Positions 3,179 through 18,261 of a stretch of 64,000 nt of DNA are shown piece after piece (position 1 is the stretch's first letter; the number at the start of each line of letters is the position of its first letter). The DNA is from Candidozyma auris. Lineage: Eukaryota; Ascomycota; Pichiomycetes; Serinales; Metschnikowiaceae. The stretch covers positions 1 to 64,000 of the forward strand of contig NC_072812.1 in assembly GCF_003013715.1 (NCBI RefSeq). The letters are read 5' to 3'. The position numbers and the translations under genes are program-made. The notes beneath the pieces are model-generated. The model was not told the origin of the DNA. It ran no database searches and saw nothing but the letters and a program-made list of their open reading frames with translations.

Positions 3179-4717
3179 TCATACGTTTGTACCATCGAGA
3201 GGCCATGGGATCTCCTCACCATAGTTCCAATGAACAGCCTTGGTCTGGGTGTATTCCTTCAAGCCCTCGATACCCAACTCACGGCCGAAACCGGACTGCT
3301 TCATGCCTCCAAATGGAACAGCATTGCTCAATGCCATGTATTGGTTGCACCACACGGTACCAGCCTTGATTGCGTGGACCATTCTCATACACTGGGAAGC
3401 GTTTTGAGAGAAAATACCACCGCCGAGACCGTAGGCAGTGTCATTAGCCAACTTGACTGCCTCCTCCTCGGTGGTGAAGCTCTGCACCGCAAGAACGGGA
3501 CCAAAGATTTCGTCGTCAACGATTTTCATGCCCTTCTTGCATTCAGTGAACACAGTTGGGGTCACAAAGTAACCATTCTTTAATTTATCAGCCAAGCTGA
3601 CTGCCTTGGCTGAGCCTCCAGTAAGCAACTTGGCGCCCTGTTCCTCACCGTATTTAATATACTGCTTGACCTTCTCGTGCTGAGCCTTCGACACAAGGGG
3701 GCCCATGAATGTCTTTATGTCGCTTGGATCGCCAATCTGGATCTCCTCCACTTTGCGCTTGAGAACCTCCAAGAACTTGTCCTTGATGGTGTCCTGAATG
3801 AAGAGACGTGACCCAGCACAGCAGTCCTGACCATGGTTAAACAAAATAGCCATACACACCCAGTTGGCGGTCTGGTCGATGTCAACGCTGTCGAACACCA
3901 CCACTGGAGACTTACCTCCGAGCTCGAGCGTGACCTTCTTCAAGTTACTGTTAGCAGCAGAAGCCATGATCTTGCGCCCAGTGACAGTAGAGCCGGTAAA
4001 GGCGATCTTGTCGATGTCCATGTGGTTGGCAATGGCACTTCCCGCCACAGCACCGAGACCATTGACTATATTCAACACACCTGGAGGAAAGCCAGCTTTC
4101 ACTGCCAACTCAGCCAAACGAAGTGCACTACAAGGAGTTTGCTCAGCAGGCTTCATGACAATGGTGTTACCGGCAGCAAGCGCAGGAGCAACTTTCCACG
4201 CAAACATCTGGATCGGGTAGTTCCATGGGATGATCTGGCCGCAAACACCAATGGGCTCTGGTCGGGTGAAGGCTACCTTGACCCCTTCTTGTAACTCGAT
4301 AGTACGGCCCTCAATCTTGTCAGCAAGACCAGCGTAGTAGCGAAGACACCCGATGGAGTCTACGATATCAACGTCACGAGCCATCCAGATGGGTTTCCCG
4401 TTGTCCAAGCTCTCCAACTGGGCAAGGTTCTCGATATCCTCCTCGATCAAGTCGGCCCACTTGTTCATGATTTCAGCTCTCTCGCCAGGAGTCGAGTTCT
4501 TGCCCCAGACGTTCTCAAACGCTTCACGAGCAGCAGCAACAGCAGCATCGATGTCCTTTTCAGTAGCGGCGCTGAGGGTAACGAGATCCTCGCCAGTAGC
4601 TGGGTTGGGAGTAGTGAAGGTAGAACCGTTGCTCGAGGGACGGAACTCGTTGTTGATGAACAACCCGGTGGGGAGGTCAATGGAGGTGTTATTGTACAAA
4701 TTGATTTTGGCAGACAT
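3179..4717 (-). CDS. NAD(P)-dependent aldehyde dehydrogenase, probably cytosolic
   Basis: A 512-residue class 1/2 aldehyde dehydrogenase (Ald2-Ald6/ALD5-like in yeasts), oxidising aldehydes to carboxylic acids. Key residues are visible: Asn166 in PWNYP, the cofactor-site GSTVTG (242-247), general base Glu265 in LELGGKSP, and nucleophile Cys299 in GQDCCAGSR. The N-terminus lacks a basic amphipathic presequence and the C-terminus (GTNV) is not a PTS1, so a cytosolic location is inferred. The ATG at 4717 is chosen because a TATA box (TATAAA on the minus strand, about 4768-4774) lies 50 bp upstream, inside the longer non-ATG frame. A CGGA-N5-TCCG element at 4814-4826 sits about 40 bp before that TATA box and links this gene to the neighbouring cluster. 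Confidence 0.92.
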   Translation of the reverse strand: MSAKINLYNNTSIDLPTGLFINNEFRPSSNGSTFTTPNPATGEDLVTLSAATEKDIDAAVAAAREAFENVWGKNSTPGERAEIMNKWADLIEEDIENLAQLESLDNGKPIWMARDVDIVDSIGCLRYYAGLADKIEGRTIELQEGVKVAFTRPEPIGVCGQIIPWNYPIQMFAWKVAPALAAGNTIVMKPAEQTPCSALRLAELAVKAGFPPGVLNIVNGLGAVAGSAIANHMDIDKIAFTGSTVTGRKIMASAANSNLKKVTLELGGKSPVVVFDSVDIDQTANWVCMAILFNHGQDCCAGSRLFIQDTIKDKFLEVLKRKVEEIQIGDPSDIKTFMGPLVSKAQHEKVKQYIKYGEEQGAKLLTGGSAKAVSLADKLKNGYFVTPTVFTECKKGMKIVDDEIFGPVLAVQSFTTEEEAVKLANDTAYGLGGGIFSQNASQCMRMVHAIKAGTVWCNQYMALSNAVPFGGMKQSGFGRELGIEGLKEYTQTKAVHWNYGEEIPWPLDGTNV

Positions 4718-5687
4718 TGTGGAAGAGTGCTGGAGAAAACAGTAGTGGGGGCTATGAGGGTTACGTGATTTATACAAGGGTGGTTTTTGTGATCGGAACC
4801 TGTCCGGTGGCCTCGGACGAGCTCCGTGAGCGCGCCCGGTTTCCCTGAGGCCTCCTGGTTACGAGCACTGCGTGTGGGTCTTACCCCAGATTTATCCCGC
4901 ATCTCGTTTTTTGCAGCACCTCGATTCCGTCGGCCACCGCCAGAAAAGGAAGGTCGGTGAGTGAAAAAATTTCTAGTCTCTTGTGGGTCGTCATCTTTGT
5001 GTTTGGACTCGGTGGTCGTCCTGCAGCCCGTGGCAACGGCAAAGATGTATGCGTCTAGAGATTCTTCATGTTTAACAAGGAAATTGAGGAGAATCTCTAA
5101 GTTTGGAGGCTCACTCCCCATCACTTCACCGAATGTTGGGGCTGGGGTTTTGAGGTGGGAACTATCTTTGTCAGATATGTAGCTGCTAACAGAGATCACA
5201 AAATGTGGTAGGTGCACGGGTGTACTTTTGGCTCTCCCCCGCGAAATCAACGCAGACGAGTATCCGTTAGTGTAAATTCAAATTGAATATCGCTCAAAAA
5301 AAATGACCATGCTGGGTACTTTTTCTTAAAATCAGCTCCTGAAACTGTATTCAGGGACTCTGAATGAAACAGAACTATGTACCAGGTCAGCATAAGGTAG
5401 GTTTGTATTCTATACCTAAAAGAAATTGATTTATCCCTACTTGAAAGACTAAGTGCTCGGTTGAGTTGATCTTTTCGTGGACAATAGCTTCAAGGTTTCT
5501 ACGGTCACTTGACAGGCTGTTCGATATTTTGTGGGGTACCTAATCTTCGGTTTCTTTGATTCACAATATAGGTAAGGTATCTTTTCTTTTATGACTTAAT
5601 TTACTGCCGTTGTGTTCAAGTTTACTGCTACAGTGTCATTTGAAGATTTTTAAAAAACAAAAAAAAGTATTGGGCATAGAAACTTTT
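4718..5687. other. Intergenic: ALDH promoter and SAP 3' region
   Basis: 970 bp. The ALDH-proximal half is GC-rich and contains the CGGA-N5-TCCG element plus a further CGG pair (CCGGTGGCCTCGG, 4804-4816). The distal half is AT-rich, with A-runs near 5290-5300 and 5650-5667 close to the SAP stop. A long minus-strand frame across 4465-5250 overlaps the ALDH start and has no recognisable protein features, so it is not annotated. Confidence 0.5.
4814..4826. promoter_or_regulatory. CGGA-N5-TCCG inverted repeat, aldehyde dehydrogenase promoter
   Basis: CGGACGAGCTCCG, 97 bp upstream of the ATG at 4717 and about 40 bp upstream of its TATA box. CGG triplets in inverted orientation with 7 bp between them are the usual target type of dimeric Zn2Cys6 regulators. 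Confidence 0.65.
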
Positions 5688-6872
5688 TTAGGCACTGACT
5701 ATGTTGGAGGCGTTGGTGTACTTGGCTTGAGCAATCGAGATTTCATCCAGAGTGAGGTCGTAGTAGACGTAAGCTGATCTCAAGAAGACGTCACCAAGGA
5801 TGAAAGTCTCTTCATTAGGCTGTACGCCCAAAACACATTCCGATTCCGAGAGGTGGAACACGAGATCATGGTACGAGACGTTGATCTTGTTGTTGCCGAA
5901 GTCAAACGTCAAAAACTTATCTTTAGGTTGGTCGCAACTAATACAGTAAAACTCAAAGCAGTAGAGACCACCAAGTGCCTTTCCGACGGCATTGATAAGT
6001 GGACTAGGCCACAAGTTTAAAGAGGTTCCTGAATCCAATAGAAATGGCTTGTTCAAGGCAACACTCTTACCATCAACCTCAGCACTCTTTACTTCGAGAG
6101 CCAATCCATCAGAGCCGGAAACAGGATATTTGGTTAATTCGCCTTCGTACTTCTCAGTGTCAATACCACCAAAGATAATCGAGCCCTTGCCAGACTCTTC
6201 AGATCCCAAGAATAGCGAATAGGACGCCTTTGGTGTGATGCCCTTCTTCTGAAAGGCCCAGGGTAAGTTGTCGTAGTGGGAAGAAACAGCTTCGGTGTTT
6301 TTGTTGCCCACACCCAAGACGCCCTCAGAGTTTGGCTCTCCTCCATCCACCACTGCAAACCGAAAGTCTTCCAAAAGTGTCTTGCCATCAGCAAAAGCAA
6401 AGTCGTCGGTCACATATTCACCTTCAGCGCCAGAACCATCCAAGTAGGAGATGGAAAACGCTTTTCCTGTGTCCTTGTCATCAGAAGACTTCGAGGGGTC
6501 AAAAGAACCACCTTGGGCCCCTGGCGTGGAGACGTTGTAGACCCAAAGGTCAGATGAGCCTGTATCCAACTCCACAGTGACAGGCTGCTTATTGGAGCCG
6601 AGCTTCACGTCTAACAAGTAGCTTATATCGTTGTCATTAACGATGGGGGAGCTAGTTGCCCTCTTCTTCCGGTTATAGCGGGACTTAAGCGCATGGGCTC
6701 TTTCTGAGAGGTCAATGATATCAGAGGACTTGTTGAGTGTCTTTCTGATGTCAAAGTCAAGCTTAATTGGAGCAGGCTCTCTTTTGTCGAGAGCCAGAGA
6801 GTCTTCGTGGGGAACCACCAAAGCGTTGGCACAAGCCAAGGCAAAAGAGAGGAGAGTCACGAAAGAAAGCAT
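5688..6872 (-). CDS. Secreted aspartyl protease (candidapepsin-like, SAP family)
   Basis: A 394-residue pepsin-family (A1) prepro-protease. The N-terminal hydrophobic signal peptide covers about residues 1-18. A Lys-Arg at 30-31 and a KKR site before the mature start (RKKRATSS, about 68-75) fit Kex2 processing. Both catalytic aspartates are present: DTGSSDLW and, later, DSGTSLNLW. A disulfide pair is likely in the CFEFYCISC segment. It ends in a SIAQAKY-type strand as in other Candida SAPs. There is no clear GPI signal, so it should be released. A TATA box (TTATAAAT on the minus strand, about 6907-6914) lies some 35 bp upstream. The gene sits inside the CGGA-N5-TCCG cluster but no such element is seen in its promoter. 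Paralogue: the disrupted gene at 29658-30869. Confidence 0.93.
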   Translation of the reverse strand: MLSFVTLLSFALACANALVVPHEDSLALDKREPAPIKLDFDIRKTLNKSSDIIDLSERAHALKSRYNRKKRATSSPIVNDNDISYLLDVKLGSNKQPVTVELDTGSSDLWVYNVSTPGAQGGSFDPSKSSDDKDTGKAFSISYLDGSGAEGEYVTDDFAFADGKTLLEDFRFAVVDGGEPNSEGVLGVGNKNTEAVSSHYDNLPWAFQKKGITPKASYSLFLGSEESGKGSIIFGGIDTEKYEGELTKYPVSGSDGLALEVKSAEVDGKSVALNKPFLLDSGTSLNLWPSPLINAVGKALGGLYCFEFYCISCDQPKDKFLTFDFGNNKINVSYHDLVFHLSESECVLGVQPNEETFILGDVFLRSAYVYYDLTLDEISIAQAKYTNASNIVSA

Positions 6873-6941
6873 GAAGATTGATTCAAAAGACTGAGAATTG
6901 ATCAGTCATTTATAAGATTGGATATCTCGAACCTTTGACAA

Positions 6942-6953
6942 TTTGCAGCCAAG
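6942..6953 (-). promoter_or_regulatory. GGCTGCAAA motif, SAP promoter copy 1
   Basis: TTTGCAGCCAAG, about 70 bp upstream of the SAP start codon at 6872. Shares the 9-base core GGCTGCAAA with several other promoters in the window. Confidence 0.4.
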
Positions 6954-7168
6954 TGGCCATACGGCTTCGGCTGCTTGCATCGCAACGTGTTAAGCGCTAC
7001 ACTCTGTTGAGAGCGTTTTGCGCTGTTGCCATACATGGAGAAGGAACGTCTAGAAAAAAATATTCTGAAGATTTTTGCCGAAGTGTAGATTATAGAATGA
7101 TTGTGACTACATTTTTTCTCACTCGAATTAGCTGAGTTGGGTTTTTGCTTTATCTCTAATTCAGTCAA

Positions 7169-7180
7169 TTTGCAGCCAAT
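7169..7180 (-). promoter_or_regulatory. GGCTGCAAA motif, SAP promoter copy 2
   Basis: TTTGCAGCCAAT, about 300 bp upstream of the SAP start. Second copy in the same promoter and the same orientation as the first. Confidence 0.4.
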
Positions 7181-7761
7181 CGAACATATTTGACATATTA
7201 TGCGAAGCCAAGCTCAATGCGGAATTTGACACTTTTCACGTAATTGCCTTTGACGCATAACCGTCGGTACCCGGAAGCTACTCGGACCCACTACATGTTG
7301 ATGACGGAGCTGCCATTGCCGTTGCTTTCTCTTTTTTGGAAGTGGCTCGCTGAGGAGCCGTACGCTTACACACCTTAAATGTTGTCGGCTAGGATTACGT
7401 AAAACACCAATCTCAAACCCCAGTCTTGATCCCCAGTCTTGAGCCTCAGCTTGGCAAATTCATGCCTCTTTCTTTAAATCCTCCACCTCTTCTTGTGAAT
7501 AATCGAGATCAATATGAGTATAATGTAGCTCCGTGGGGTTGTTATAACGCTCGTGGATGTATACGTTAATCAATTTAGTTCATTCTTTAAACGCATACTC
7601 ATTATTTGAGTCATCCAGTTCTATCTTCGCCAGTTAATTTTGTCCAAGCTCAATTCGACTGCGAAGACTCGCTTGCCTGGGTTATTTGTATCAGTACTAC
7701 AATGACACCTTAGTCTACAAGAATCTCACTGAAATCAATACATTGCATCTACGTCGTTCAT

Positions 7762-8955
7762 TTAAAGCTTGGCTGGCAAGTTGACTGTGGTGCTGTCGAC
7801 CACCTTGTCAAGAATAGCTCTAGTCTTTGGCGGCACATTAACGTGGACTTTGTGGAGGGCTCCATCGGGGCCCATCCTCGCCAAATGTTCAGGCCTGATA
7901 TCTTCCACCTTTGTGCATCCCATGAGAGCCATCACGGTTCTGAATTCGTCATGCAAAATGTTGAGGGCAATGCTGACACCCTCCTCTCCCTTGTAGGCAA
8001 GACCCCACAAAGGAATGCGTCCCACCCAGCAGTGGTCGGCGCCTAAAGCCAACGCCTTGAAGATATCGCTGCCTCTTCTGATACCTCCATCAATGTGCAC
8101 GGGGATTCTGCCAGCAACAGCCTCAACCACGTCAGGCAAGGCGTCTAAGGTGGACATGGCGCCATCCAATTGCCTGCCTCCGTGGTTCGACACAAGGATC
8201 CCATCAGCGCCCGCCTCCACAGCCAATGCTGCGTCTTCTGGAGTGAGGATGCCTTTGAGCCAAATCTGCATTGTTGTCTTGGTCTTGAGGTACCTGATGT
8301 AATCCCATTTGAGCGATGGGTGGTACTGAGTCCTGTCGTCGTCGCTGACCATGTTATCGCTTTTGATCCATGGGTAGCTGGGGAAGTTGAGGTGGTCGGG
8401 AAGCCTGAAGTCATTTTTCATTTCGTTCAACCTTCTGCCAAGCCATGGGCAGTCCACGCTAACAAAAAGCGCCTTGTATCCGCAAGCCTCGGCGTTTTTT
8501 ATGATGGACATGTTGGTTGGGTCGTGTTTCACCACACTCAATTGTTGGCCGTAAGCGTTTCCTGAGTTTTTGCCCTGGTCAATAACGTCTTTCGACGAGG
8601 AGTTGGACCAGCTCGAGAGAATCATGTTGACACCTTTTTTGGCAGCTGCTCTCGATGTTCCCAATTCGGCATCAGGGTGTGCCATTCCGTGGTTGGCTGC
8701 TGGAGAAAAGCCCAAAGGGAAAGCGACTTTTGCACCCAAGCATGTGGTGGTCGTATCGACGTTGCTGACATCCACCATCACCCTTGGACGAAGTCTGTAC
8801 TTGTCATAAGATGATTGGTTTTCTCTGACAGTGCCAAGGTCCATTGACCCTCCACTGTAGAAATCACGGGCCATAGGCTCGAGGTTCTCATTTGCAACTT
8901 TTTCCAAGTCTGCAATGCAGTGAACTTTGTCGTCGTAGTTTTTTGCACGGTTCAT
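7762..8955 (-). CDS. FMN-dependent (S)-2-hydroxy-acid oxidase/dehydrogenase, likely peroxisomal
   Basis: A 397-residue alpha-hydroxy-acid oxidase (glycolate oxidase / lactate oxidase / flavocytochrome b2 catalytic-domain family), which converts 2-hydroxy acids to 2-oxo acids with FMN. Active-site elements are in place: Tyr33 (DFYSGG), Tyr135 (AYGQQL), Lys234 (WLKGILT), catalytic His258 and Arg261 (SNHGGRQLDG), and the phosphate-binding region near GGIRRGSD. It lacks the N-terminal cytochrome b5 domain and mitochondrial presequence of Cyb2, so it probably uses oxygen. The last residues are Ala-Lys-Leu, a standard PTS1 peroxisomal signal, which strongly suggests peroxisomal oxidation with H2O2 release. 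The substrate (glycolate, lactate or longer) cannot be read from sequence. It is divergent from the permease at 9594; a CGGA-N5-TCCG element lies 116 bp upstream. Confidence 0.88.
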   Translation of the reverse strand: MNRAKNYDDKVHCIADLEKVANENLEPMARDFYSGGSMDLGTVRENQSSYDKYRLRPRVMVDVSNVDTTTTCLGAKVAFPLGFSPAANHGMAHPDAELGTSRAAAKKGVNMILSSWSNSSSKDVIDQGKNSGNAYGQQLSVVKHDPTNMSIIKNAEACGYKALFVSVDCPWLGRRLNEMKNDFRLPDHLNFPSYPWIKSDNMVSDDDRTQYHPSLKWDYIRYLKTKTTMQIWLKGILTPEDAALAVEAGADGILVSNHGGRQLDGAMSTLDALPDVVEAVAGRIPVHIDGGIRRGSDIFKALALGADHCWVGRIPLWGLAYKGEEGVSIALNILHDEFRTVMALMGCTKVEDIRPEHLARMGPDGALHKVHVNVPPKTRAILDKVVDSTTVNLPAKL

Positions 8956-9071: not shown

Positions 9072-9084
9072 CGGAGGCGCTCCG
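9072..9084. promoter_or_regulatory. CGGA-N5-TCCG inverted repeat, oxidase promoter
   Basis: CGGAGGCGCTCCG, an extended perfect palindrome apart from the central three bases, 116 bp upstream of the oxidase ATG in the divergent promoter shared with the first MTR-type permease. Confidence 0.65.
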
Positions 9085-9399: not shown

Positions 9400-9412
9400 C
9401 GGAGCGTCTCCG
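9400..9412. promoter_or_regulatory. CGGA-N5-TCCG inverted repeat, permease A promoter
   Basis: CGGAGCGTCTCCG, ending 181 bp before the permease ATG at 9594. The same 181 bp distance separates the element from the ATG in the paralogous permease B promoter. Confidence 0.65.
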
Positions 9413-9593: not shown

Positions 9594-11036
9594 ATGTCAG
9601 ACGAAAAACATAAGAAAGAGCTCAACGTGGTGATATCTCCCCTGGTCAGTCGCTTCAGCGAGTTCGATGCGGGAGAGCACGCTGTGTTTGTGGTGCAAGA
9701 GGAAGGACCAGACTTTCGTGGTGTGACGTGCTTGGGAGCTGCTGTGTTGATCGCCAAAGCTCAGTTTGGGTTGGGTGTGCTTGGTATCCCAGAAACATTT
9801 CTGGCCTTGGGCGTGGTACCGGGCCTCATTTGTCTTCTTGCCCTTTGCGCCTTGAGTACTTGGACTGGTTACATTGTGGGCCAGTTTCGTCTTCACCACC
9901 CTCACGTCTACAGTATTGGAGATGCCGCCGAGATCATGTTCGGAACTGCTGGCAGGGAGTTCATGGGCGGCGCTTTCTGGTTATACTATGCGCTTGTGTA
10001 CGGAGCTTCACTTCTTACCTTGTCGATTGCCTTCAACACTTTGACAGAACACTCTCTTTGCACAACTGCTTTCGTGGGAATAGGTGCAGCTATGACTTTT
10101 GTGCTTGGAACTGCCATCAGAACCATGAAGGTGATGTCGTGGTGCGGATACATTGCCCTTGCTTCAGTGTTCGTCAGCTCGTGGGTGGTTGCAATTGCTT
10201 GTCTTACGCAGTCAACTCCTGTTGCTGCTCCAAAAGGTGAGCCCGTGGTCAAGGGAATTGTTGCTGTGGCCACAGGGAAACCGTTCTCAACAATCTCCAG
10301 TGCCATTGGTGTCCAGCTCTTGAGTCTTTGTGGCACTGCTGCCTACTTTAACATCCACTCGGAAATGAGAGACCCTTCCCAGTACACGAAGTCGTTGTTG
10401 CTTGGCCAAGGGTTCGTCATTATCAACTATATTATCCTCTCGTGCATGATCTATGGTAAGGTCGGCAACTACGTCACCTCGCCAGCTTTGGGGTCGGCAG
10501 GCCGGCTCTTCCAGAAAATCTCCTACGGCATAGCTTTTCCTGGTTTGATTTTTTCGTGTTTCTTCCACTCCCATTTGGCGGGCAAGTATGGTTTAGTTCG
10601 CATTCTCAGAGACACAAGGCATCTCCAAAAAAATACCAAAACCCACTGGATCACCTGGGTGGGCAACATGGTCTTATCGGTTGTGTTCGGGTTTGTCATT
10701 GCCAGTGCCATTCCTTTTTTCAACGACTTGTTGTCGCTTGTGGCTTCTTTAATAGGCACCAGCTTCATGCTCATTGTGCCCGGATTTTTGGCTCTTTACG
10801 AAATGTGCTTGTACGTACGCAAGCAAGACGACCCGCTTTTGGCGTGGGTGAGCGAGTGCAAGAGGAATTGGAGAAGAAGCAGATATAGCATCATCACCAC
10901 CGTGCTTGCGTTCATTGCTATTGCATTTGGCCTCTTCATCTTGGTGGCTGGAACCTACGGATCAGTGCAGTCGATCATCAACAATTACAAGGCTGGAGTG
11001 GTCGCTGGTGCCTTTGATTGTGGCGATAACAGTTAA
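9594..11036 (+). CDS. MTR-type (AAAP family) amino-acid permease A
   Basis: A 480-residue membrane protein with about 11 predicted hydrophobic segments, of the amino acid/auxin permease family. The start of the first membrane region (GPDFRGVTCLGAAVLIAK) and the segments around IPETFLALGVVPGL and FGTAGREFMGGAFWLYYA resemble Neurospora mtr-type H+/neutral amino-acid symporters more than vacuolar Avt proteins, so plasma-membrane uptake of an amino acid or related compound is inferred. The cytosolic N-terminus is about 45 residues and acidic. Start: ATG at 9594, a TATA box about 45 bp upstream, MSDEKHKK. Its tandem paralogue B follows at 11666 and a damaged third copy C lies at 19507. The promoter CGGA-N5-TCCG element joins it to the ALDH, oxidase and aldolase genes. 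Confidence 0.88.
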   Translation: MSDEKHKKELNVVISPLVSRFSEFDAGEHAVFVVQEEGPDFRGVTCLGAAVLIAKAQFGLGVLGIPETFLALGVVPGLICLLALCALSTWTGYIVGQFRLHHPHVYSIGDAAEIMFGTAGREFMGGAFWLYYALVYGASLLTLSIAFNTLTEHSLCTTAFVGIGAAMTFVLGTAIRTMKVMSWCGYIALASVFVSSWVVAIACLTQSTPVAAPKGEPVVKGIVAVATGKPFSTISSAIGVQLLSLCGTAAYFNIHSEMRDPSQYTKSLLLGQGFVIINYIILSCMIYGKVGNYVTSPALGSAGRLFQKISYGIAFPGLIFSCFFHSHLAGKYGLVRILRDTRHLQKNTKTHWITWVGNMVLSVVFGFVIASAIPFFNDLLSLVASLIGTSFMLIVPGFLALYEMCLYVRKQDDPLLAWVSECKRNWRRSRYSIITTVLAFIAIAFGLFILVAGTYGSVQSIINNYKAGVVAGAFDCGDNS

Positions 11037-11450: not shown

Positions 11451-11463
11451 CGGAGCCGCACCG
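11451..11463. promoter_or_regulatory. CGG-N7-CCG element, permease B promoter (distal)
   Basis: CGGAGCCGCACCG. The inverted CGG triplets have the same 7 bp spacing as the other cluster elements, though the flanking T of TCCG is replaced by A. It lies 8 bp upstream of the full-match element. Confidence 0.5.
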
Positions 11464-11471
11464 AACATGTT

Positions 11472-11665: not shown

Positions 11666-13108
11666 ATGTCTGCCGACGATCCCAAAAAAAACCACACCAT
11701 CGTGGTGTCTCCACAGATCAGCCACTTCAGCGAGTTTGACACTGGAGAACACGATGTGTTTGTTGTCAAGGAAGAAGGCCCCGACTTTCGTGGCGTCACC
11801 TGTATTGGTGCTGCTGTGTTGATAGCCAAATCCCAGTTTGGCCTCGGTGTACTTGGACTTCCCCAGACGTTTCTGACGTTGGGTTTCGTTCCTGGTTTGA
11901 TTTGTCTTGTGGCCTTGTGCGCCATAAGTACATGGACAGGATACGTGGTTGGCAAATTTCGGCTTCGGTACCCTCACATCTACAGTATAGGAGATGCTGC
12001 CGAGATGATGTTTGGCACTGTGGGCAGAGAGTTCATGGGCGGGGCGTTCTGGCTATTCTATGCTCTTTGCTACGGTGCTTCTGTGCTTACATTCTCCATT
12101 GCTCTTAACACGTTGAGTAATCACGCTATTTGTACTACGGGGTTTGTTGGAATCGGGGCTGCGATCAGTCTTATTATCGGCACCAGCGTGAGAACCATGA
12201 AAGTCATGTCGTGGTGTGGGTATGTTGCTCTTGGCTCGATTTTCTTATCCACTTGGATAGTGGTCATCGCCTGCTTGTCACAGTCTACTCCAGCAGCCGC
12301 TTCCAAAGGTGTGCCTATCGACAAGGGTATTGTGGCGGTTTCATCTGGGAAGCCTTTCTACGCTATTGCCAGTGCCATTGCAACTCAGCTTCTAGGGCTT
12401 TGTGGAACCGCTTCTTTCTTCACCATCCACTCCGAAATGAAGGACCAGACCCAATATATCAAGTCTTTGTTTCTTGGACAGGGTTTTGTGGTTTTCAACT
12501 ACATGATAGTTTCTTGCATCATATACGGGAAAGTTGGTGACTACGTCACCTCTCCAGCGTTGGGATCGGCTGGTCCGCTATTCCAAAAAATTTGTTACGG
12601 CATTGCTTTGCCTGGGTTGATCTTCTCCTGCTTCTTTCAAGCTCACTTGGCAGGAAAGTACGGTTTGGTTCGTATATTGAGAGGTACAGAAAACTTACAG
12701 ACCAATTCATTCACCCACTGGTTGACTTGGATCTCAATGATGGTGATTGTAATTGTTTTTGGTTTTGTGATTGCCAGCGCAATTCCATTTTTCAACGACT
12801 TGTTGGCACTTATAGGTGCCTTTATAGGTACGAGCTTCACCCTTATCGTTCCGGGCTTCCTCGCATTGTATTTAATGAGCAGATACATGACAAAAAAGGG
12901 GGATGGAACTTTGTCGTGGTTGAGGAAGTGCACAAGAAAGTGGTCGAGAAGTAGATCCAGCGTCATTACCACAGTGTTGGCTCTCTTCGCCATAGTGTTT
13001 GGGTTTTTCATTTTAGTGGCGGGTACATATGGTGCCGTGCAATCGATTATCAATGGTTACAAGAACGGTACCGTTTCCAAAGCTTTTGATTGTGCAGACA
13101 ACAGTTAG
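11666..13108 (+). CDS. MTR-type (AAAP family) amino-acid permease B
   Basis: 480 residues, same length as permease A and clearly its tandem duplicate: the N-terminal SPQISHFSEFDTGEHDVFV, the first membrane segment (GPDFRGVTCIGAAVLIAK), the FGTVGREFMGGAFWL segment and the C-terminal VAGTYGAVQSIINGYK all align. Predicted plasma-membrane H+-coupled amino-acid uptake, with about 11 membrane segments. The ATG at 11666 (MSADDPKK) is chosen; the frame upstream opens only at a TTG. It follows permease A in the same direction after 629 bp and carries its own pair of CGG-N7-CCG elements, so it is likely controlled by the same regulator. Substrate difference from A cannot be judged. Confidence 0.88.
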   Translation: MSADDPKKNHTIVVSPQISHFSEFDTGEHDVFVVKEEGPDFRGVTCIGAAVLIAKSQFGLGVLGLPQTFLTLGFVPGLICLVALCAISTWTGYVVGKFRLRYPHIYSIGDAAEMMFGTVGREFMGGAFWLFYALCYGASVLTFSIALNTLSNHAICTTGFVGIGAAISLIIGTSVRTMKVMSWCGYVALGSIFLSTWIVVIACLSQSTPAAASKGVPIDKGIVAVSSGKPFYAIASAIATQLLGLCGTASFFTIHSEMKDQTQYIKSLFLGQGFVVFNYMIVSCIIYGKVGDYVTSPALGSAGPLFQKICYGIALPGLIFSCFFQAHLAGKYGLVRILRGTENLQTNSFTHWLTWISMMVIVIVFGFVIASAIPFFNDLLALIGAFIGTSFTLIVPGFLALYLMSRYMTKKGDGTLSWLRKCTRKWSRSRSSVITTVLALFAIVFGFFILVAGTYGAVQSIINGYKNGTVSKAFDCADNS

Positions 13109-13331
13109 GTAGGTTTCTTCTGTATTATGAACAGATGTTTTATGGCTTGGTTTCAGATTAATTAGTCAGTAAACTCATTTTCAGGACCAAAGATAAAAAA
13201 ATAGCTTTTACAGAGGCCGATTCGTAACAACAGCTTATACATATGAACAGTCAACTCATCAACAGAAAACAAAACCAAGGTTTATATAAGACGCTCAAGT
13301 CATCAATTAAACAACCAACACTATGAACTAC

Positions 13332-14219
13332 CTACTTAGAGGCAAGATAAGCCCGGTAGTAAACTGGCAAACCGTCAATCAATGAAGGCTTCACTGGGTT
13401 CCATCCAAGAAGCGTCCGACCCAAAGTACCTCTCACCACACTGGTGTTGGACAAGGCTCTCTCAAAATCGTTCGAGGGTTCTTTGTAGCTATAACCGTCG
13501 ACGTTACTCAACTTAGCAAGCTGCGACAAGAGAGTGTCAACGCTTTCGGTCGAAAAGTTGCTGCCTTCAAGTTTGAGACCCTTAACTAGTGGGTGCTTCT
13601 CAACAGCAAGTCTATACAACTCGCCAAGGTCATCAACGTGAATAGTAGCGTATCTTCCGCCTGGATGCCCAGGCCACTCAATTTTTCCCTTATTTTCCTG
13701 ATCAAAAAGCATACCAACAACGTTGGACTGTCTTCCGTATACGAGGCCTGGACGAATGACAATACCATCAAGCTTAGTGCTCAGAATTATCTGGTTCTCC
13801 ACTTCCGGACGCCATTGAACCTTTGCAGGAGGATGGGACACCTCAGTTCCGTCTGTGACAATCTCGAAACGGTCATCACCGTGAATCCATACTCCAGAAG
13901 TCCACACATAGACTAACTTTGCAGCCGTAGGGTGTCTCCTAGCTTCCTCGGCTTTGGTCACAAGCTTAGAGCTGATCTGGCCTAGTGGAGCAGATCCCCC
14001 GAGACAGTCTACCACCACGTCCACGAGAGATAATTTCTCGACCCATTTGTCATCTGCAACAGGGTCACTCTCGAGCACTTCCATCTCATCCTTCTCGAAC
14101 TCCTTACCCCATTTGCTGGCGTCTCTAGTCTGGGCAAGAACAGAATGTCCAGCCCGAACCAAAGCATTTGCAACACTATTGCCAATGTAACCACTTGCTC
14201 CAAGGACTAAAACTTTCAT
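13332..14219 (-). CDS. NAD(P)-binding epimerase/dehydratase-like protein (atypical SDR)
   Basis: A 295-residue atypical short-chain dehydrogenase. The N-terminus has the dinucleotide-binding GASGYIG motif (residues 7-13) following a KVLVL strand. The order of elements (DCLGG segment, YVWTSGVWIHG segment, IVIRPGLVYGRQ, then HVDDLGELYRLA) is that of the NAD-dependent epimerase/dehydratase and NmrA-like families. There is no canonical YxxxK pair in the usual place, so catalysis may differ or be absent. Substrate unknown. A TATATG box lies about 45 bp upstream, and a CGGA-N5-TCCG element 78 bp upstream, so it probably belongs to the local regulon. It is divergent from the Zn2Cys6 regulator and convergent with permease B. 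Confidence 0.8.
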   Translation of the reverse strand: MKVLVLGASGYIGNSVANALVRAGHSVLAQTRDASKWGKEFEKDEMEVLESDPVADDKWVEKLSLVDVVVDCLGGSAPLGQISSKLVTKAEEARRHPTAAKLVYVWTSGVWIHGDDRFEIVTDGTEVSHPPAKVQWRPEVENQIILSTKLDGIVIRPGLVYGRQSNVVGMLFDQENKGKIEWPGHPGGRYATIHVDDLGELYRLAVEKHPLVKGLKLEGSNFSTESVDTLLSQLAKLSNVDGYSYKEPSNDFERALSNTSVVRGTLGRTLLGWNPVKPSLIDGLPVYYRAYLASK

Positions 14220-14297
14220 CTTGAGATGTGTATTCTACTGACGTGAGGTTGGGTCAGGGGTGTTCATATATGTATTGCGGGGACATACCGAGGGCTT

Positions 14298-14310
14298 CGG
14301 AAAAGGTCCG
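14298..14310. promoter_or_regulatory. CGGA-N5-TCCG inverted repeat, epimerase promoter
   Basis: CGGAAAAGGTCCG, 78 bp upstream of the epimerase ATG and roughly 25 bp beyond its TATATG box. A CCG triplet 7 bp before it (14288-14290) makes a further overlapping everted pair. Confidence 0.65.
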
Positions 14311-14618
14311 AAAGTAGACCAAGTCAAGTGACCGCATAATTTGGTACGCGATTAGACAACTGATGTTTGGAATGAAATTATACTTTGGCTGGTAGCCGTT
14401 GTCCATTCTCGTTAAAGCCGTTTATGAATAACGTCTATGATATAGGTTGTCACATCGATTCATGCACCGAATTAGTAAGATTCTAACTGAAATTGAAACT
14501 AGATCTTGGAAATCATTTTGTCCAACTCACCTGAGTAGTGTCAGAATTGACCAACTTGAAGCGCTTGGGCTCCTAATATATTACTTCGTCTCTATTCCCT
14601 TCAGTCGAAGGCACTCTG

Positions 14619-14632
14619 AATGGCTGCAAAAT
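14619..14632 (+). promoter_or_regulatory. AATGGCTGCAAAA motif in the regulator's upstream region
   Basis: AATGGCTGCAAAAT, about 237 bp upstream of the regulator ATG. One of at least nine copies of the GGCTGCAAA core in non-coding DNA of the window. Confidence 0.4.
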
Positions 14633-14772
14633 ACGTGCATGAAAAGTACACAACGTAACTTCCCTAGCAGCTCATCAAATGACTCGAGACGTCAATATGA
14701 TATACTCTTTGGGAGAAAAATTACACTCCCATCTCCATCAATCATAATATAGCCTTCCTGGAGGCATCCCAG

Positions 14773-14783
14773 CGGACGCTCCG
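14773..14783. promoter_or_regulatory. CGG-N5-CCG element, possible autoregulation of the Zn2Cys6 gene
   Basis: CGGACGCTCCG, inverted CGG triplets with 5 rather than 7 bp between them, 85 bp before the regulator ATG. The shorter spacing may mean a weaker site, another factor, or chance. Confidence 0.35.
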
Positions 14784-14868
14784 GCTCCCACTGTTCTTGA
14801 GCACCTGTACACAACCACACTACCCCAAGAAAGATATCACCAACCAAAGTTCCACTTGTGGCCCAAAA

Positions 14869-17163
14869 ATGTCAGTGGCAGCTCCTCCTCAGCGGCTTCG
14901 TGCTTGCCAGAGGTGCCGATCCCGCAAGACCAGATGTGACCACACTCTCCCGTCGTGTCTGAGCTGTGCAAAAGCTGGAGTTCCGTGTATGAGCGATGAT
15001 AAGGCTTCGGGACGGACTTTGACGAGAGCAGAGGCGTGGGCGTTGGAGCAGAGAATCAAAACGCTCTCGGAGTCGATTCAGGCACAAGATAATATACCCA
15101 ATTCGACCGAAGCAATGAAGAGTTCGGCCGATTGCGAGCCCACCGAATCCAAGAAGCGTAGGCTTTCGGAGGACTCGCTGAGCAGTGAAGAATTGGATTC
15201 CGGAAACGAGGGTGATAACAGCAGCCATTACAACGGATTGCATCTTCTTGGATCGGTTATTTCGGACAATGGCAGCTCCCACGTGAGTGAAGACATCAGA
15301 AGAGAAATTCGACGATACTCTCACTCCATGACCCCTCAGGGAGCTAGAGAAACGTTCATTGCTACAGAAAACTTGGCCATAGGAAAGTTGGGAAGAGACT
15401 TCTTGAAAGCTCTGCGGAAAAATATTGTCCGCAACAGGGCTACAGATATCACTGCTTACAATATGTCCATCTTGTCTAGAGTCTCAAGAAGGTACTTCTC
15501 ATGGTTCAATAGTGCTTACCCGGTGATGCACGAGAAGCAATTTAGTGATCTTCTTCAAAAGTGCCATGACTCTCCCGATAGTGCTTCTGCACTATCCTTA
15601 TTCCAGGTAAGAATCGTCATTGCCATCTCTCTAGCATCCATCAGTCGTCCTCACCTATCTACATCCGAGCTAGGTCACAGTTCCCATGCCTTTTGGAAGT
15701 CAGCGACCAGACTACTATCTCGTTCTATAAACGAGGCGTCAGGCATTGTTCATTTACAGATATCTTTGCTTCTTTTACAGTACACGCTTCTAGTGCCCAA
15801 AGCAGGTAATTTGTGGCAGCTAGCTGGCTCTGCCATGAGGATCGCTACAGAGCTAGGTTACTACGCTGAGCCCACACCAGGTAAAAACCTTGATCCGCTC
15901 ACGCTAGACCTTCGGCGTCGTCTCTTTTGGACGTGCTACTGCATTGACAGAACCCTAAGTACTATCATGGGGCGTCCAACGAGTATTCCAGATGCGTGGA
16001 TCACCGCAGAAATGCCTTCACTTGTGGAAGACGCCCTAATCAGGCCCGATGGCGTTCATCTGGGACCAACATGCCATTTAAAAATTGCATCGATTCATCA
16101 TGTACATATATGCCGATTACAGTCGGAAATACATGGAAGGCTATATGCTCCAGGGCACAACCCAGCACTAGACCCAGAGAGTCTCTCGAAATGGACATGG
16201 CACACGTACGACCAACTAAGAGCTTGGCGTCTGTCTCACTTATACCCGACGCCTTTAATAACAAGGGAATGGACTGAATTCCAATTTCACATAGCAGTCG
16301 TTCTTCTACTAAGACCCTCTCCGAACAGGGCAAACCCTACTCTTGAGGAATTGCACGTTGCATTCCACTCTGCTGGCCAGGCTATGAACCTCGTGAAGAT
16401 TATGCACCGTGAAGCCTCTGCAGTGTTTGCCTGGCTCACTGTTCAGAGTCTATTCATGTGTGGATTAACGTACATTAGGTACTTGCGTACCCTTTCTAAT
16501 GCTAATCAAATTCAATTGTGCAAGCCGTTTGTTGAGATAATCCTAGAGGTGCAAGCGTGCTCCTCGATGCTTGAAACGCTAGCAGCTTTGGATAGTGGTG
16601 ACCATGAGCAAATTCGGAACGTGTTTGAAGTGGCGTCTTCGAATGTGCTTCACGAATTGGCCAACTCGTGCAACATCACTAGTCAGGCCAATAAAGGCAA
16701 TGTCTGTATTTGGGATAGGCTTGCAAAGTCTAGTAGTCCTTCTTTGCAGCGACCCATCAACATTCCGGGCTGCAGCCCAGTTGAATTACAAAGAGAAACG
16801 AATATCCATCTAATTTCAAAACTTCAAGAAAGAGACAATTCCTTACTTGACGATGATCATTTCTTCCATCATGACGTCGATGCCTACCCTTCTTCGGGCT
16901 ACTCACATCGACAAGACAATTCCAATGATTTACATGTACCTGCAAACCCTCGATCATGGCGCCAATCTGAGGAATTTACAAGTGTGACTCCCTTCAGAGA
17001 CTTTCCTCGAGACGACGGTCTCGAGAGAGGATTTACTTCTCAACCAACTCCGGGTCCGTTTGCATCTCCTATGCAAGACAGCATACACACAAGCGGACTT
17101 GTGCCCGATATTCCCGATGACACAAGTGCCGATTTGGAGAGATGGTTCCTATACCCAATCTAA
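14869..17163 (+). CDS. Zn2Cys6 transcription factor, candidate regulator of the cluster
   Basis: A 764-residue fungal zinc-cluster regulator. The binuclear cluster is at residues 13-40 with spacing C-X2-C-X6-C-X6-C-X2-C-X6-C, followed by a linker with a potential dimerisation segment and a fungal-specific middle homology region (about 200-550; RRRLFWTCYCIDRTLS near 349 is typical). The C-terminal tail is acidic and rich in Ser/Asp and may activate. Codon 31, inside the cluster, is CTG (14959-14961) and should be read as Ser. Such proteins bind CGG pairs as dimers; the CGGA-N5-TCCG elements in front of neighbouring genes are the natural candidate targets, which is inference. The ATG at 14869 is the first in frame; the frame upstream opens only with TTG. 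Closest named relative not identified. Confidence 0.87.
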   Translation: MSVAAPPQRLRACQRCRSRKTRCDHTLPSCLSCAKAGVPCMSDDKASGRTLTRAEAWALEQRIKTLSESIQAQDNIPNSTEAMKSSADCEPTESKKRRLSEDSLSSEELDSGNEGDNSSHYNGLHLLGSVISDNGSSHVSEDIRREIRRYSHSMTPQGARETFIATENLAIGKLGRDFLKALRKNIVRNRATDITAYNMSILSRVSRRYFSWFNSAYPVMHEKQFSDLLQKCHDSPDSASALSLFQVRIVIAISLASISRPHLSTSELGHSSHAFWKSATRLLSRSINEASGIVHLQISLLLLQYTLLVPKAGNLWQLAGSAMRIATELGYYAEPTPGKNLDPLTLDLRRRLFWTCYCIDRTLSTIMGRPTSIPDAWITAEMPSLVEDALIRPDGVHLGPTCHLKIASIHHVHICRLQSEIHGRLYAPGHNPALDPESLSKWTWHTYDQLRAWRLSHLYPTPLITREWTEFQFHIAVVLLLRPSPNRANPTLEELHVAFHSAGQAMNLVKIMHREASAVFAWLTVQSLFMCGLTYIRYLRTLSNANQIQLCKPFVEIILEVQACSSMLETLAALDSGDHEQIRNVFEVASSNVLHELANSCNITSQANKGNVCIWDRLAKSSSPSLQRPINIPGCSPVELQRETNIHLISKLQERDNSLLDDDHFFHHDVDAYPSSGYSHRQDNSNDLHVPANPRSWRQSEEFTSVTPFRDFPRDDGLERGFTSQPTPGPFASPMQDSIHTSGLVPDIPDDTSADLERWFLYPI

Positions 17164-17192
17164 AGTAGTATTTGATTCCGTTGTGGAGACCT

Positions 17193-17205
17193 CGGAGGTG
17201 CTCCG
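17193..17205. promoter_or_regulatory. CGGA-N5-TCCG inverted repeat, aldolase promoter
   Basis: CGGAGGTGCTCCG, 165 bp before the aldolase ATG, in the 207 bp gap between the regulator stop and the aldolase. Confidence 0.65.
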
Positions 17206-17223
17206 GAAAGCGCGGTTGGTCTT

Positions 17224-17236
17224 CGGACAGCCACCG
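17224..17236. promoter_or_regulatory. CGG-N7-CCG element, aldolase promoter (proximal)
   Basis: CGGACAGCCACCG, 18 bp downstream of the full-match element, keeping the 7 bp spacing between CGG and CCG. Paired sites are also present before permease B. Confidence 0.5.
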
Positions 17237-17370
17237 AATCTCTCGCGCATAACGCCTGGATACGCTCGGGCGCCTTCCGTGTGGGACCCCATTTCTGCAA
17301 AATGATTTAAAGGTCGACAATTGCAGATGATTAAGCTCTGCTAATTTTCAAACTATCAAATTATACGACA

Positions 17371-18261
17371 ATGGTCCACAAGAAGATCGAGGGAATCATC
17401 GCTGCCGTTCCTACACCACTCACTGCTGATGCAAAGGCAGTGGACTTGGAGAACATAAAGGCTCAGGTCGAACGTTTGGCTGAAGCCGGTATCCATGGAA
17501 TTGTTACCACCGGTACCACTGGTGAGTTTCCAGCTCTCTCGCTTGAGGAGCACAAGAGTGTTATCAAGGCATACGTTGACGCAGTCGCAGGAAGGTTCCC
17601 TGTGATTGCTGGTCTTGGCTTCAACAGCACTCAGTTGGCCATTGAGATGGCTCAGTACTCTGAAAAAGTCGGTGCTGACGCTTGCATGATTGTCCCACCA
17701 TTCTACGATCCTCTCCCATTCAAGGCTCTCTACAAGTTCTTTGAGGACGTGTGTGGGTCCATCTCGATTCCCGTTATGTACTACAATTTGCCTGGTGCTA
17801 CTGGAGTCCACCTCACAGCCGAGCAATTCAGAGAGCTCTCCAAGATCAAGGGATTTGACTACATGAAGGACACTTCAGGTAACGCCAAGGAGTTGGGTGA
17901 CCTTTTGACTAACCCTCCAGACGGGCTCCAGCCATTCAATGGTTGGGACACCCTTACTTTCTTCGCTATGTCCCACGGTGCTAGGGCGAGTGTCTGGGGA
18001 GTGGCATCCATCGTGCCCAAAGAGTGTGTCGAGTTGTGGAACACCTTCACCAAGGAGAAAAACTTGGAGAAAGCCAGAGAGCAGTGGAAGTTCCTCTGGG
18101 AGGTAAGTGACTTCCTCGAGAGCGTTTGTTACCCAACAGGTATCAAGGCCGGTCTTGAGATTATTGGCCATCCAGCAGGCCCAGTTAGGGCACCCACATT
18201 GCCATTGGAGCAGAAGGATTACGACAGGTTGAAGAAGATTCTTTCCAAGAGAAAGTATTAA
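17371..18261 (+). CDS. DHDPS-family (class I) aldolase/lyase, not a true DapA
   Basis: A 296-residue TIM-barrel enzyme of the dihydrodipicolinate synthase / N-acetylneuraminate lyase family. The Schiff-base lysine is Lys166 (YMKDTSGN), the proton-relay tyrosine is Tyr138 (YYNLPG), and the carboxylate-binding GTTGE loop is near residues 48-52. The arginine that DapA uses to bind aspartate semialdehyde (YNVPSRTG) is replaced: this protein reads YNLPGATG. Fungi make lysine by the aminoadipate route, so a pyruvate-forming aldolase (4-hydroxy-2-oxoglutarate, 2-keto-3-deoxy acid) or a dehydratase/deaminase is more likely. Exact substrate unknown. About 26 Leu codons include no CTG. Two CGG-N7-CCG elements lie upstream, joining it to the ALDH and hydroxy-acid oxidase genes. 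Confidence 0.88.
   Translation: MVHKKIEGIIAAVPTPLTADAKAVDLENIKAQVERLAEAGIHGIVTTGTTGEFPALSLEEHKSVIKAYVDAVAGRFPVIAGLGFNSTQLAIEMAQYSEKVGADACMIVPPFYDPLPFKALYKFFEDVCGSISIPVMYYNLPGATGVHLTAEQFRELSKIKGFDYMKDTSGNAKELGDLLTNPPDGLQPFNGWDTLTFFAMSHGARASVWGVASIVPKECVELWNTFTKEKNLEKAREQWKFLWEVSDFLESVCYPTGIKAGLEIIGHPAGPVRAPTLPLEQKDYDRLKKILSKRKY

Follow-up and report, generated by a model that had tools for sequence, protein, structure and literature searches.

A subtelomeric gene cluster of Candidozyma auris with a shared CGGA-N5-TCCG promoter element: a putative hydroxyproline regulon combining direct FMN oxidation with a laterally acquired deaminase

The window analysed here, which is the whole 64,000-nucleotide stretch of Candidozyma (Candida) auris DNA, carries a gene cluster near one chromosome end (Table 1), a subtelomeric position marked by a telomere-like repeat with a unit of about 20 bp that fills the first ~370 bp of the contig. 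The gene calls of the initial annotation were correct in outline, including the Zn2Cys6 gene in the middle of the group; its enzyme names were generic and the assignment to a specific pathway is an addition of the present analysis, while the gene it had called epimerase-like encodes an NmrA-like Rossmann protein that does not belong to the proline racemase family. Two genes without the element, an aspartyl protease gene and a third permease gene, are not counted in the putative regulon. The latter has no in-frame ATG before 19862 and is either a paralogue in decay or affected by an error in the local sequence.

Table 1. Genes and promoter elements of the cluster, with two neighbouring genes that lack the element
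Feature	Position	Strand	Remarks
Aldehyde dehydrogenase, 512 aa	3179..4717	-	Pfam Aldedh, 584 bits
Two full CGGA-N5-TCCG elements, 20 bp apart	4794-4806, 4814-4826		Before aldehyde dehydrogenase gene
Aspartyl protease, between aldehyde dehydrogenase and oxidase genes	5688..6872	-	No element; not counted in regulon
FMN-dependent oxidase, 2-hydroxy-acid oxidase / FUB9-like family, 397 aa	7762..8955	-	Pfam FMN_dh, 400 bits
Full element before FMN oxidase gene	9072..9084		Centre to ATG 123 bp
Full element before permease A gene	9400..9412		Centre to ATG 188 bp
Amino acid permease A, Aa_trans/AAAP family, 480 aa	9594..11036	+	Pfam Aa_trans
CGG-N7-CCG (11451) and full element (11472), 21 bp apart, before permease B gene	11451..11484
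Amino acid permease B, 480 aa	11666..13108	+	72% identity with permease A
NmrA-like / NAD(P)-binding Rossmann protein, 295 aa	13332..14219	-	Pfam NmrA, NAD_binding_10, Epimerase
CGG-N7-CCG (14278) and full element (14298), 20 bp apart, before NmrA-like gene	14278..14310
Zn2Cys6 transcription factor, 764 aa	14869..17163	+	Pfam Zn_clus and Fungal_trans
Full element (17193) and two CGG-N7-CCG (17224, 17267) before deaminase gene	17193..17279
DHDPS-family deaminase (proposed)	17371..18261	+	Pfam DHDPS, 199 bits
Third AAAP permease, 61% identical to A	19544..20938	+	No element; not counted in regulon

The window contains seven full CGGA-N5-TCCG sites, all intergenic and confined to 4.8-17.2 kb, and, as previously noted by eye, none in the other intergenic regions. 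Six of these had been listed at their correct positions, the seventh (4794-4806, 20 bp from 4814) having been overlooked, and similarly the two additional CGG-N7-CCG sites already recorded (11451 and 17224) are accompanied by two that were missed (14278 and 17267). The sites lie upstream of six genes at centre-to-ATG distances of 65-209 bp: 83 and 103 bp for the aldehyde dehydrogenase pair, 65 and 85 bp for the two sites ahead of the NmrA-like gene, and 188 bp for the full element of permease B, which is equal to the permease A distance.

The expectation of one copy per 65 kb given earlier is an equal-base figure, and the measured frequency is lower, at 59 copies in 12.25 Mb or about one per 208 kb. 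A genome-wide scan for copies in unrelated promoters, the check named in the initial annotation, returned 52 sites outside the cluster, of which 36 fall inside and 16 outside ORFs (mechanically called, at least 100 codons), leaving the regulon reading in place; a companion site within 60 bp was found for only one of the 52. With these 52 sites as background, the Poisson chance of seven sites in 18.3 kb is 3e-12. Dinucleotide shuffles of the window gave a mean of 0.39 full sites and never seven or more (0/100), and 5,000 shuffles restricted to the five promoter regions yielded, on average, 0.037 full sites (maximum 2; 7 observed) and 0.41 CGG-N7-CCG (maximum 4; 11 observed). When CGG-Nk-CCG spacings were compared, enrichment was seen for N7 alone, with 11 copies in 2,526 promoter bases versus two elsewhere in the window (27051 and 46193). 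As a spacer control, CGGA-N6-TCCG has 54 genomic copies, approximately as many as the N5 sites outside the cluster, none of the places listed in the genome scan being in the cluster. Direct CGG-N8-CGG repeats occur five times in the promoters, where two of them overlap with full elements, and five times elsewhere. Eight fixed bases make a short motif, which could invite an explanation by chance or by the base composition of a GC-rich subtelomere, but the promoter shuffles, the spacing specificity and a flat GC content (0.45-0.48 across the first 30 kb of the contig) make this extremely improbable, the counts already contradicting it.

An element of fixed spacing built from CGG triplets, shared by the pathway gene promoters and not widespread outside them, together with a local Zn2Cys6 gene that also carries a fungal trans domain, corresponds to what is expected of a GAL4-type Zn2Cys6 regulon. 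The closest solved structure to the DNA-binding domain of the 14869 protein, by sequence, is Ppr1 (1pyi), and the C. auris element resembles the targets of Ppr1/UaY-type regulators in its inverted CGG triplets and short spacing. It differs from them in having seven rather than six bases between the triplets, six being the spacing at both Ppr1 and UaY sites, and in that none of its putative targets is a pyrimidine or purine gene. Put3, whose sites are CGG-N10-CCG, likewise places imino-acid use under Zn2Cys6 control in the yeast proline regulon. We propose, from sequence features, that the 14869 protein may be a pathway-specific regulator, which as a dimer would most likely bind TCGGA-N5-TCCGA-type inverted repeats and would switch on six genes, those of the two permeases, the FMN oxidase, the DHDPS-family enzyme, the aldehyde dehydrogenase and the NmrA-like protein. 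The element closest to the regulator gene itself lies 565-585 bp from its ATG.

Other fungi provide a further line of evidence. Relatives of the deaminase and oxidase share eight contigs, those of the deaminase and regulator nine, those of the oxidase and regulator seven, and all three occur together on three, while both controls gave zero; sharing was deduced from equal contig sizes and locus tags, and two of these contigs measure 635 kb and 1.4 Mb. Concordant locus tags include TRVA0_064S00188 with TRVA0_064S00276, PSN45_002649 with PSN45_002656, and TRICI_004369 with TRICI_004361/4364/4367, although this last species, Trichomonascus ciferrii, has its listed DHDPS protein (TRICI_005777) on a separate 3,289-bp contig, away from that of the oxidase and regulators. 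The deaminase-oxidase pair is also present in basidiomycetes, e.g., Violaceomyces palustris. The self-contained regulon suggested earlier is thus supported by this contig sharing between regulator and enzymes, by the N7-only enrichment, by the placement of the sites and by the genome scan. That the elements are instead targets of another Zn2Cys6 regulator, with 14869 as a bystander, is conceivable given 13 further Zn2Cys6-type match pieces in the genome (some covering the middle domain only), but is quite improbable in view of the Ppr1-like DNA-binding region of the 14869 protein and the presence of its relatives on contigs with the same enzymes.

The protein encoded at 17371-18261, previously described as an aldolase, shows 55-59% identity to named actinobacterial proteins and has one match only in the C. 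auris genome. Lys166 and Tyr138 (window numbering), which we take to be catalytic, are invariant across 23 aligned sequences. A true 4-hydroxy-tetrahydrodipicolinate synthase (DapA) was considered and rejected, the score of 181.6 bits being below the NCBIfam dapA cut-off of 206.15. In the tree, the window protein falls in a 19-row clade (100/100) that holds every named fungal row, and outside this clade every locus of known organism is actinobacterial. We propose that the fungal deaminase was acquired laterally from Actinobacteria, the topology suggesting this direction of transfer.

Among the 78 loci fetched for the nearest non-fungal, bacterial relatives, where some contigs are shorter than the operon, a proline-racemase-family gene is found nearby in 68, a D-amino-acid dehydrogenase in 62, both in 57 and neither in five; an aldehyde dehydrogenase is nearby in 57, in 35 of those at 40% identity or more. 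For loci L062-L082 (n=21) the corresponding neighbours number 19, 20 and 17. In Arthrobacter sp. SW1 the best NCBIfam matches of the neighbours are trans-3-hydroxyproline dehydratase / proline racemase / 4-hydroxyproline epimerase, D-amino acid dehydrogenase and aminobutyraldehyde dehydrogenase, of which the last alone scores above its cut-off. According to the available text of two papers, the published hydroxyproline pathway is made up of the same superfamilies as seen beside these bacterial relatives (PMC4113996, PMC6608401).

A complete bacterial-type hydroxyproline pathway is not what was found in C. auris, where the searches returned neither a convincing racemase-family 2-epimerase nor an in-cluster D-amino-acid dehydrogenase or oxidase. 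The single proline-racemase-family match in the genome (29.6 bits, Pfam cut-off 27) covers 72/325 positions and belongs to a PhzF-family protein, scoring 194 bits as such. There are 14 DAO-family matches, 13 of them above the cut-off (14 of 22 candidates scored), none of which lies in the cluster or within the initial 500 kb of C1. The same regulon could serve the same substrate class through the D-epimer, cis-4-hydroxy-D-proline being the intermediate in the bacterial operon, if an unrecognised epimerase were present, a DAO encoded elsewhere made the pyrroline and the FMN oxidase had a side job. The DAO-family genes and the marginally above-threshold racemase match speak for such a route, but the short span and PhzF identity of that match, the absence of a DAO gene from the cluster and the FMN oxidase being on contigs with deaminase and regulator in other fungi make it unlikely.

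The FMN oxidase keeps seven of the eight catalytic positions compared, whose roles we assume from FMN oxidases in general; the exception is Tyr129 of glycolate oxidase, replaced by serine (Ser140), and a standard glycolate/lactate oxidase with the full catalytic set was therefore rejected. Of 8,000 scored relatives, the 120 listed all have Ser, Cys, Thr or Asn at this position, and many relatives carry the name FUB9. Ser140 alone is no sign of hydroxyproline, because the clade without Tyr129 is large and for the most part has no shown linkage to the deaminase. The C-terminus, AKL, is of the peroxisomal targeting signal type, and a strict peroxisomal end is kept in 19 of the 40 nearest relatives. 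FUB9-type fungal oxidases belong to the same subfamily by sequence, none of the 120 listed relatives having Tyr at this position, but FUB9 itself, as far as the available text of PMC10967133 goes, catalyses the final oxidation step of fusaric acid synthesis within a biosynthetic cluster, in contrast with the C. auris gene, which lies among catabolic ones. The enzyme is proposed to be an L-hydroxyproline oxidase.

The aldehyde dehydrogenase, the nearest paralogue of which found in the genome is 49% identical, scores 395.9 bits with the gudD-type alpha-ketoglutarate semialdehyde dehydrogenase model (NCBIfam cut-off 770), 555.7 bits with the betaine-aldehyde model (cut-off 668.6) and 288-328 bits with glutamate-semialdehyde models. 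Because the first two scores are below their cut-offs, its substrate is assigned from position, and we propose that it may catalyse the last step, from alpha-ketoglutarate semialdehyde to alpha-ketoglutarate. Since this activity is said to have evolved repeatedly within the superfamily, the low gudD-type score does not exclude it. Similarly, the position of permeases A and B suggests a role in hydroxyproline uptake.

In mammals, hydroxyproline is broken down through a DHDPS-family aldolase, whose product is acted on by a hydroxy-acid oxidase. This precedent, together with the presence of glycolate oxidases among the top-scoring solved structures related to the FMN enzyme, could suggest that the DHDPS protein is a 4-hydroxy-2-oxoglutarate aldolase, releasing pyruvate and glyoxylate, with the FMN enzyme as a glycolate/glyoxylate oxidase. 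We consider this route distinctly improbable: none of the 60 entries listed, out of 147 solved relatives, bears the name of that aldolase, listed solved relatives reach 161 bits versus 360-382 for listed actinobacterial ones, the oxidase has no Tyr129 equivalent, and the aldehyde dehydrogenase scores higher on betaine-aldehyde-type than on glutamate-semialdehyde models. Degradation of another cyclic or small amino or hydroxy acid under the same regulator, e.g., pipecolate, cis-4-hydroxy-L-proline or a sugar acid, is rather unlikely; the three enzyme families each have a broad catalytic range and FUB9-type oxidases also serve secondary metabolism, but the neighbourhoods of the bacterial relatives are mostly of the hydroxyproline type.

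We therefore favour, with moderate confidence, a subtelomeric hydroxyproline regulon in which the L-form is oxidised directly by the FMN enzyme and processed by the laterally acquired deaminase and then the aldehyde dehydrogenase. The permeases would import the likely substrate, trans-4-hydroxy-L-proline, which the predicted peroxisomal oxidase would convert directly to delta1-pyrroline-4-hydroxy-2-carboxylate; the deaminase would yield alpha-ketoglutarate semialdehyde and ammonia, and the dehydrogenase alpha-ketoglutarate. Like this cluster, the bacterial trans-4-hydroxy-L-proline operon (LhpA/C/D type; Streptomyces coelicolor HypR regulon, SCO6289-SCO6293) combines a DHDPS-family deaminase with an aldehyde dehydrogenase, genes for amino acid uptake and a local regulator. 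The C. auris cluster differs in lacking the racemase-family epimerase and DAO-family genes and having an FMN oxidase, and in having fungal permeases and a Zn2Cys6 protein in place of an ABC transporter and a regulator that we take, by sequence type, to be of the GntR type. One fungal oxidase would thus stand in for two bacterial steps, those of the epimerase and the D-hydroxyproline dehydrogenase. That C. auris and scattered yeasts share such an epimerase-free route, formed by a FUB9-type L-4-hydroxyproline oxidase and an actinobacterial deaminase under a Zn2Cys6 regulator reading TCGGA-N5-TCCGA, is a tentative proposal, with close to even chances of being correct. In the open-licence papers searched, neither a description of an epimerase-free hydroxyproline pathway nor hydroxyproline use as a C. 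auris trait was found.

Hydroxyproline is a hallmark of collagen, and its inducible use, if true, would be a nutritional trait of a skin-colonising pathogen, in contrast with Candida albicans, whose proline regulator Put3 is not induced by hydroxyproline compounds according to the available text of PMC10621835. It would also give functions to a yeast regulator family, to an FMN oxidase clade whose present names often refer to a toxin pathway and to fungal proteins now labelled "dihydrodipicolinate synthase", and would clearly exemplify a chimeric pathway, with one bacterial gene and fungal enzymes placed under a fungal switch.

Seven full copies of the element CGGA-N5-TCCG were found in the cluster (at 4794, 4814, 9072, 9400, 11472, 14298 and 17193), with no other copy in the window, against 0.39 expected, and with the looser form CGG-N7-CCG the cluster gains four further sites, at 11451, 14278, 17224 and 17267, and the rest of the window two. 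The five promoter regions analyzed, 2,526 bases in total, contain 11 CGG-N7-CCG sites; for triplets in this orientation with any of the remaining spacings between 0 and 16, the count is 0 to 2. Dinucleotide shuffles of these promoters gave means of 0.41 loose and 0.037 full sites, and on the basis of these means, of an enrichment confined to the N7 spacing and of a flat GC content (0.45-0.48 over the first 30 kb), an origin by chance or as an artefact of GC content was rejected. The highest count for any other orientation of the CGG triplets was 5, for CGG-N8-CGG direct repeats (2/5 overlapping full elements), with 5 more elsewhere in the window. A T precedes all seven full cluster sites and an A follows four of them (together 11/14 flanks); around the 52 other full sites of the genome such flanks number 24/104. 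Sites are grouped in 4/6 promoters, at distances close to whole helix turns, and in both permease promoters, which otherwise show little likeness (alignment judged by eye), the full element lies 188 bp from the ATG.

Genes of the cluster, the third permease and distances within groups of element sites
Feature	Position	Basis or remark
Aldehyde dehydrogenase	3179-4717	Pfam
FMN-dependent dehydrogenase	7762-8955	Pfam
Aa_trans permease (permease A)	9594-11036	Pfam
Permease B	11666-13108	72% identical to permease A
NmrA/NAD-binding protein	13332-14219	Pfam
Zn2Cys6 regulator	14869-17163	Pfam
DHDPS-family protein	17371-18261	Pfam
Third permease	~19507-20938 (frame from 19544)	61% identical to permease A
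Site pair	4794/4814	20 bp apart
Site pair	11451/11472	21 bp apart
Site pair	14278/14298	20 bp apart
Sites	17193/17224	31 bp apart
Sites	17224/17267	43 bp apart

The initial annotation had proposed, as its simplest reading, that the cluster genes form a self-contained regulon of the Zn2Cys6 gene among them, and this reading withstood a scan of the whole genome (12.25 Mb, 7 contigs; 59 full and 643 loose sites) for the element in unrelated promoters. Of the 52 full sites outside the cluster, 36 fall within ORFs of 100 codons or more, leaving 16 that lie in none, and on this ground, together with the distance of the 13-mer site described below from the nearest start, a genome-wide promoter element was rejected; the control spacer CGGA-N6-TCCG has 54 genomic copies, so that beyond the cluster the N5 form and the control spacing are of about equal frequency. 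Just one of the 52 has a companion site within 60 bp, this being C1:182285 on the contig whose first 64 kb form the window (C1:182266-182297, with a CGG-N7-CCG companion 19 bp off); next to this site lie a SurE-family gene (638 bp away) and a Peroxin-3 gene (818 bp away), the latter noteworthy because the oxidase of the cluster has a peroxisomal signal. The one site that shares its 13-mer (CGGAGCGTCTCCG) with the element of permease A at 9400, C2:14850-14862 near another contig end, stands 931 bp before the nearest start found, that of a carnitine acyltransferase gene. Pfam analysis of 17 proteins adjoining 13 of the 16 non-ORF sites revealed no hydroxyproline-type gene, and further regulon members among these neighbours were therefore rejected; the families found were, besides those already named, Vps5/PX, PX, two cytochromes P450, D-2-hydroxyacid dehydrogenase, an adenosine deaminase family member, glycosyltransferase, DUF1687, Pam17, PIG-P and a sugar transporter, with three proteins without a family.

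Among solved structures the regulator matches Ppr1 best (residues 11-96, 50 bits, with no length change to residue 82), with Lac9 and Leu3 next. Its Zn2Cys6 region, where complete, and its middle domain are retained in 18 aligned relatives that are 44-75% identical, and the remaining matches in the genome are distant (best 98.7 bits, 29%), so it has no close paralogue. In the intergenic region shared with the NmrA-like gene the sites are 565-585 bp from the regulator ATG, and they are therefore more likely to act for the NmrA-like gene. In Debaryomyces tyrocola and Trichomonascus ciferrii a single contig carries two or three members of this regulator family.

Translation was performed with CUG as serine (code 12), since the genome is that of Candidozyma auris, which decodes CUG in this way. 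A telomere-like array of about 370 bp (window 1-371; unit about 20 bp, CAGACACCACCTAAGAAAC...) opens the window, and contig C1 therefore extends to the end of the chromosome or close to it. Chromosome ends differ between C. auris clades. Beside this repeat lies an M28/TFR-dimer peptidase (669-3041) and inside the cluster an aspartyl protease (5688-6872), both without the element; the two might possibly help to free collagen peptides.

Beyond the three permeases of the window, one further genome match was found, a distant one (26%). The third permease is an open frame whose first in-frame start is not reached until 19862; an ATG stands at 19507, but nine consecutive A separate it from the open frame and it is read in a different one. 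The gene is either a decayed copy or the product of a local sequence error. The NmrA-like gene had been called epimerase-like, and a role as hydroxyproline epimerase was rejected, the family being wrong by Pfam; its match to a bacterial operon protein is weak and confined to the nucleotide-binding start. The aldehyde dehydrogenase scores 395.9 on the alpha-ketoglutarate semialdehyde dehydrogenase model, below the cut-off of 770.

The DHDPS-family protein, a putative deaminase previously read as an aldolase, has no second match in the genome and scores under the DapA cut-off and far under the NCBIfam cut-offs for sugar-acid, N-acetylneuraminate and KDG enzymes, on which grounds a sugar-acid (KDG/KDA-type) aldolase was discarded. 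Its top relatives are from other yeasts (nearest other species 84-85%) and then from Actinobacteria (named ones 55-59%). A public C. auris model of this gene shows one substitution, a gap of 19 internal residues and another C-terminal end, and since the window reading frame is uninterrupted this suggests that the public model is mis-spliced.

The neighbourhoods of bacterial relatives (37-59% identical) were compared at 78 loci by tblastn with the neighbouring proteins of Arthrobacter sp. SW1, several of the contigs being too short to show a whole operon. A proline-racemase-family gene was found near the deaminase relative at 68/78 loci, a D-amino-acid dehydrogenase at 62/78 (both at 57/78, neither at 5/78), an aldehyde dehydrogenase at 57/78 and a substrate-binding protein at 32/78. 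The best NCBIfam models of the three SW1 neighbours were trans-3-hydroxyproline dehydratase / proline racemase / 4-hydroxyproline epimerase, D-amino acid dehydrogenase and aminobutyraldehyde dehydrogenase, with the model cut-off exceeded in the last case alone. This gene combination is that of the published bacterial hydroxyproline route, which comprises an epimerase, a D-hydroxyproline oxidase/dehydrogenase, a DHDPS-family deaminase and an alpha-ketoglutarate semialdehyde dehydrogenase (PMC4113996, PMC6608401). Because 22 of the 57 aldehyde dehydrogenases are just 29-36% identical to the Arthrobacter one (e.g., at locus L082), recruitment of the final step may have happened repeatedly.

In a midpoint-rooted tree of 55 deaminase sequences, the window protein falls in a clade of 19 rows (100/100), in which the 10 rows of known fungal origin are all included along with 9 others, and outside it every locus of known organism belongs to Actinomycetota. 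This topology fits a transfer whose direction we infer to have been from bacteria to fungi.

The literature searched yielded no account of a hydroxyproline cluster of the present kind in fungi; A. fumigatus is reported to use hydroxyproline as nitrogen source for growth (PMC2526178), and genes related to the use of 3-hydroxyproline occur in fungi (PMC5144071). Linkage in other fungi was assessed by equal size in bp of the longest contig per protein across protein lists, most rows being metagenome assemblies. The deaminase and oxidase rows have 8 sizes in common, deaminase and regulator 9, and oxidase and regulator 7, and all three share three sizes (8,988; 25,931; 635,343); two control lists gave 0 shared sizes, and the 635-kb and 1.4-Mb shared contigs are by themselves insufficient proof of nearness. 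Locus tags back a common contig or nearness in Trichomonascus vanleenenianus (TRVA0_064S00188, S00276) and Yamadazyma tenuis (PSN45_002649, 002656). In T. ciferrii they place the oxidase TRICI_004369 on a common contig with, or near, the regulators TRICI_004361, 004364 and 004367, the deaminase listed being on a different contig, and in the basidiomycete Violaceomyces palustris a contig size of 68,427 bp appears in deaminase and oxidase rows alike. Orthologues of the cluster genes are present in Candidozyma duobushaemuli, C. pseudohaemuli, Debaryomyces tyrocola, Yamadazyma tenuis and Trichomonascus vanleenenianus. No relative was found in viral contigs.

As to how the presumed deaminase substrate, delta1-pyrroline-4-hydroxy-2-carboxylate, might be formed, the single proline-racemase-family match in the genome scores 29.6 bits against a Pfam cut-off of 27, covers 72/325 positions and belongs to a PhzF-family protein (194 bits over its full length), and none of the scored DAO-family matches of the genome lies inside the cluster. 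The cluster oxidase is an FMN enzyme that retains 7/8 catalytic positions of glycolate oxidase; the Tyr129 position is Ser, and the 120 relatives listed of 8,000 scored have Ser, Cys, Thr or Asn there. Elsewhere the genome has two more long FMN_dh-type matches, which are 33-35% identical and have longer frames (592 and 576 codons). The oxidase ends in AKL, a peroxisomal signal, and among the same 120 a strict signal of this type ends 19/40 of the nearest relatives and 71/80 of the farther ones. Many relatives bear the name FUB9, an enzyme whose substrate is a cyclic imino acid. FUB9 is described as an FMN enzyme that carries out the oxidation with which fusaric acid synthesis ends (PMC10967133). 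The literature searched showed no assay of an FMN hydroxy-acid oxidase with hydroxyproline. In old work, a kidney L-amino-acid oxidase was reportedly identified with an enzyme of the FMN hydroxy-acid oxidase type. Given the PhzF assignment of the racemase match, the lack of a DAO in the cluster and these features of the FMN enzyme, its action as a direct L-hydroxyproline oxidase would be the simplest closure of the pathway.
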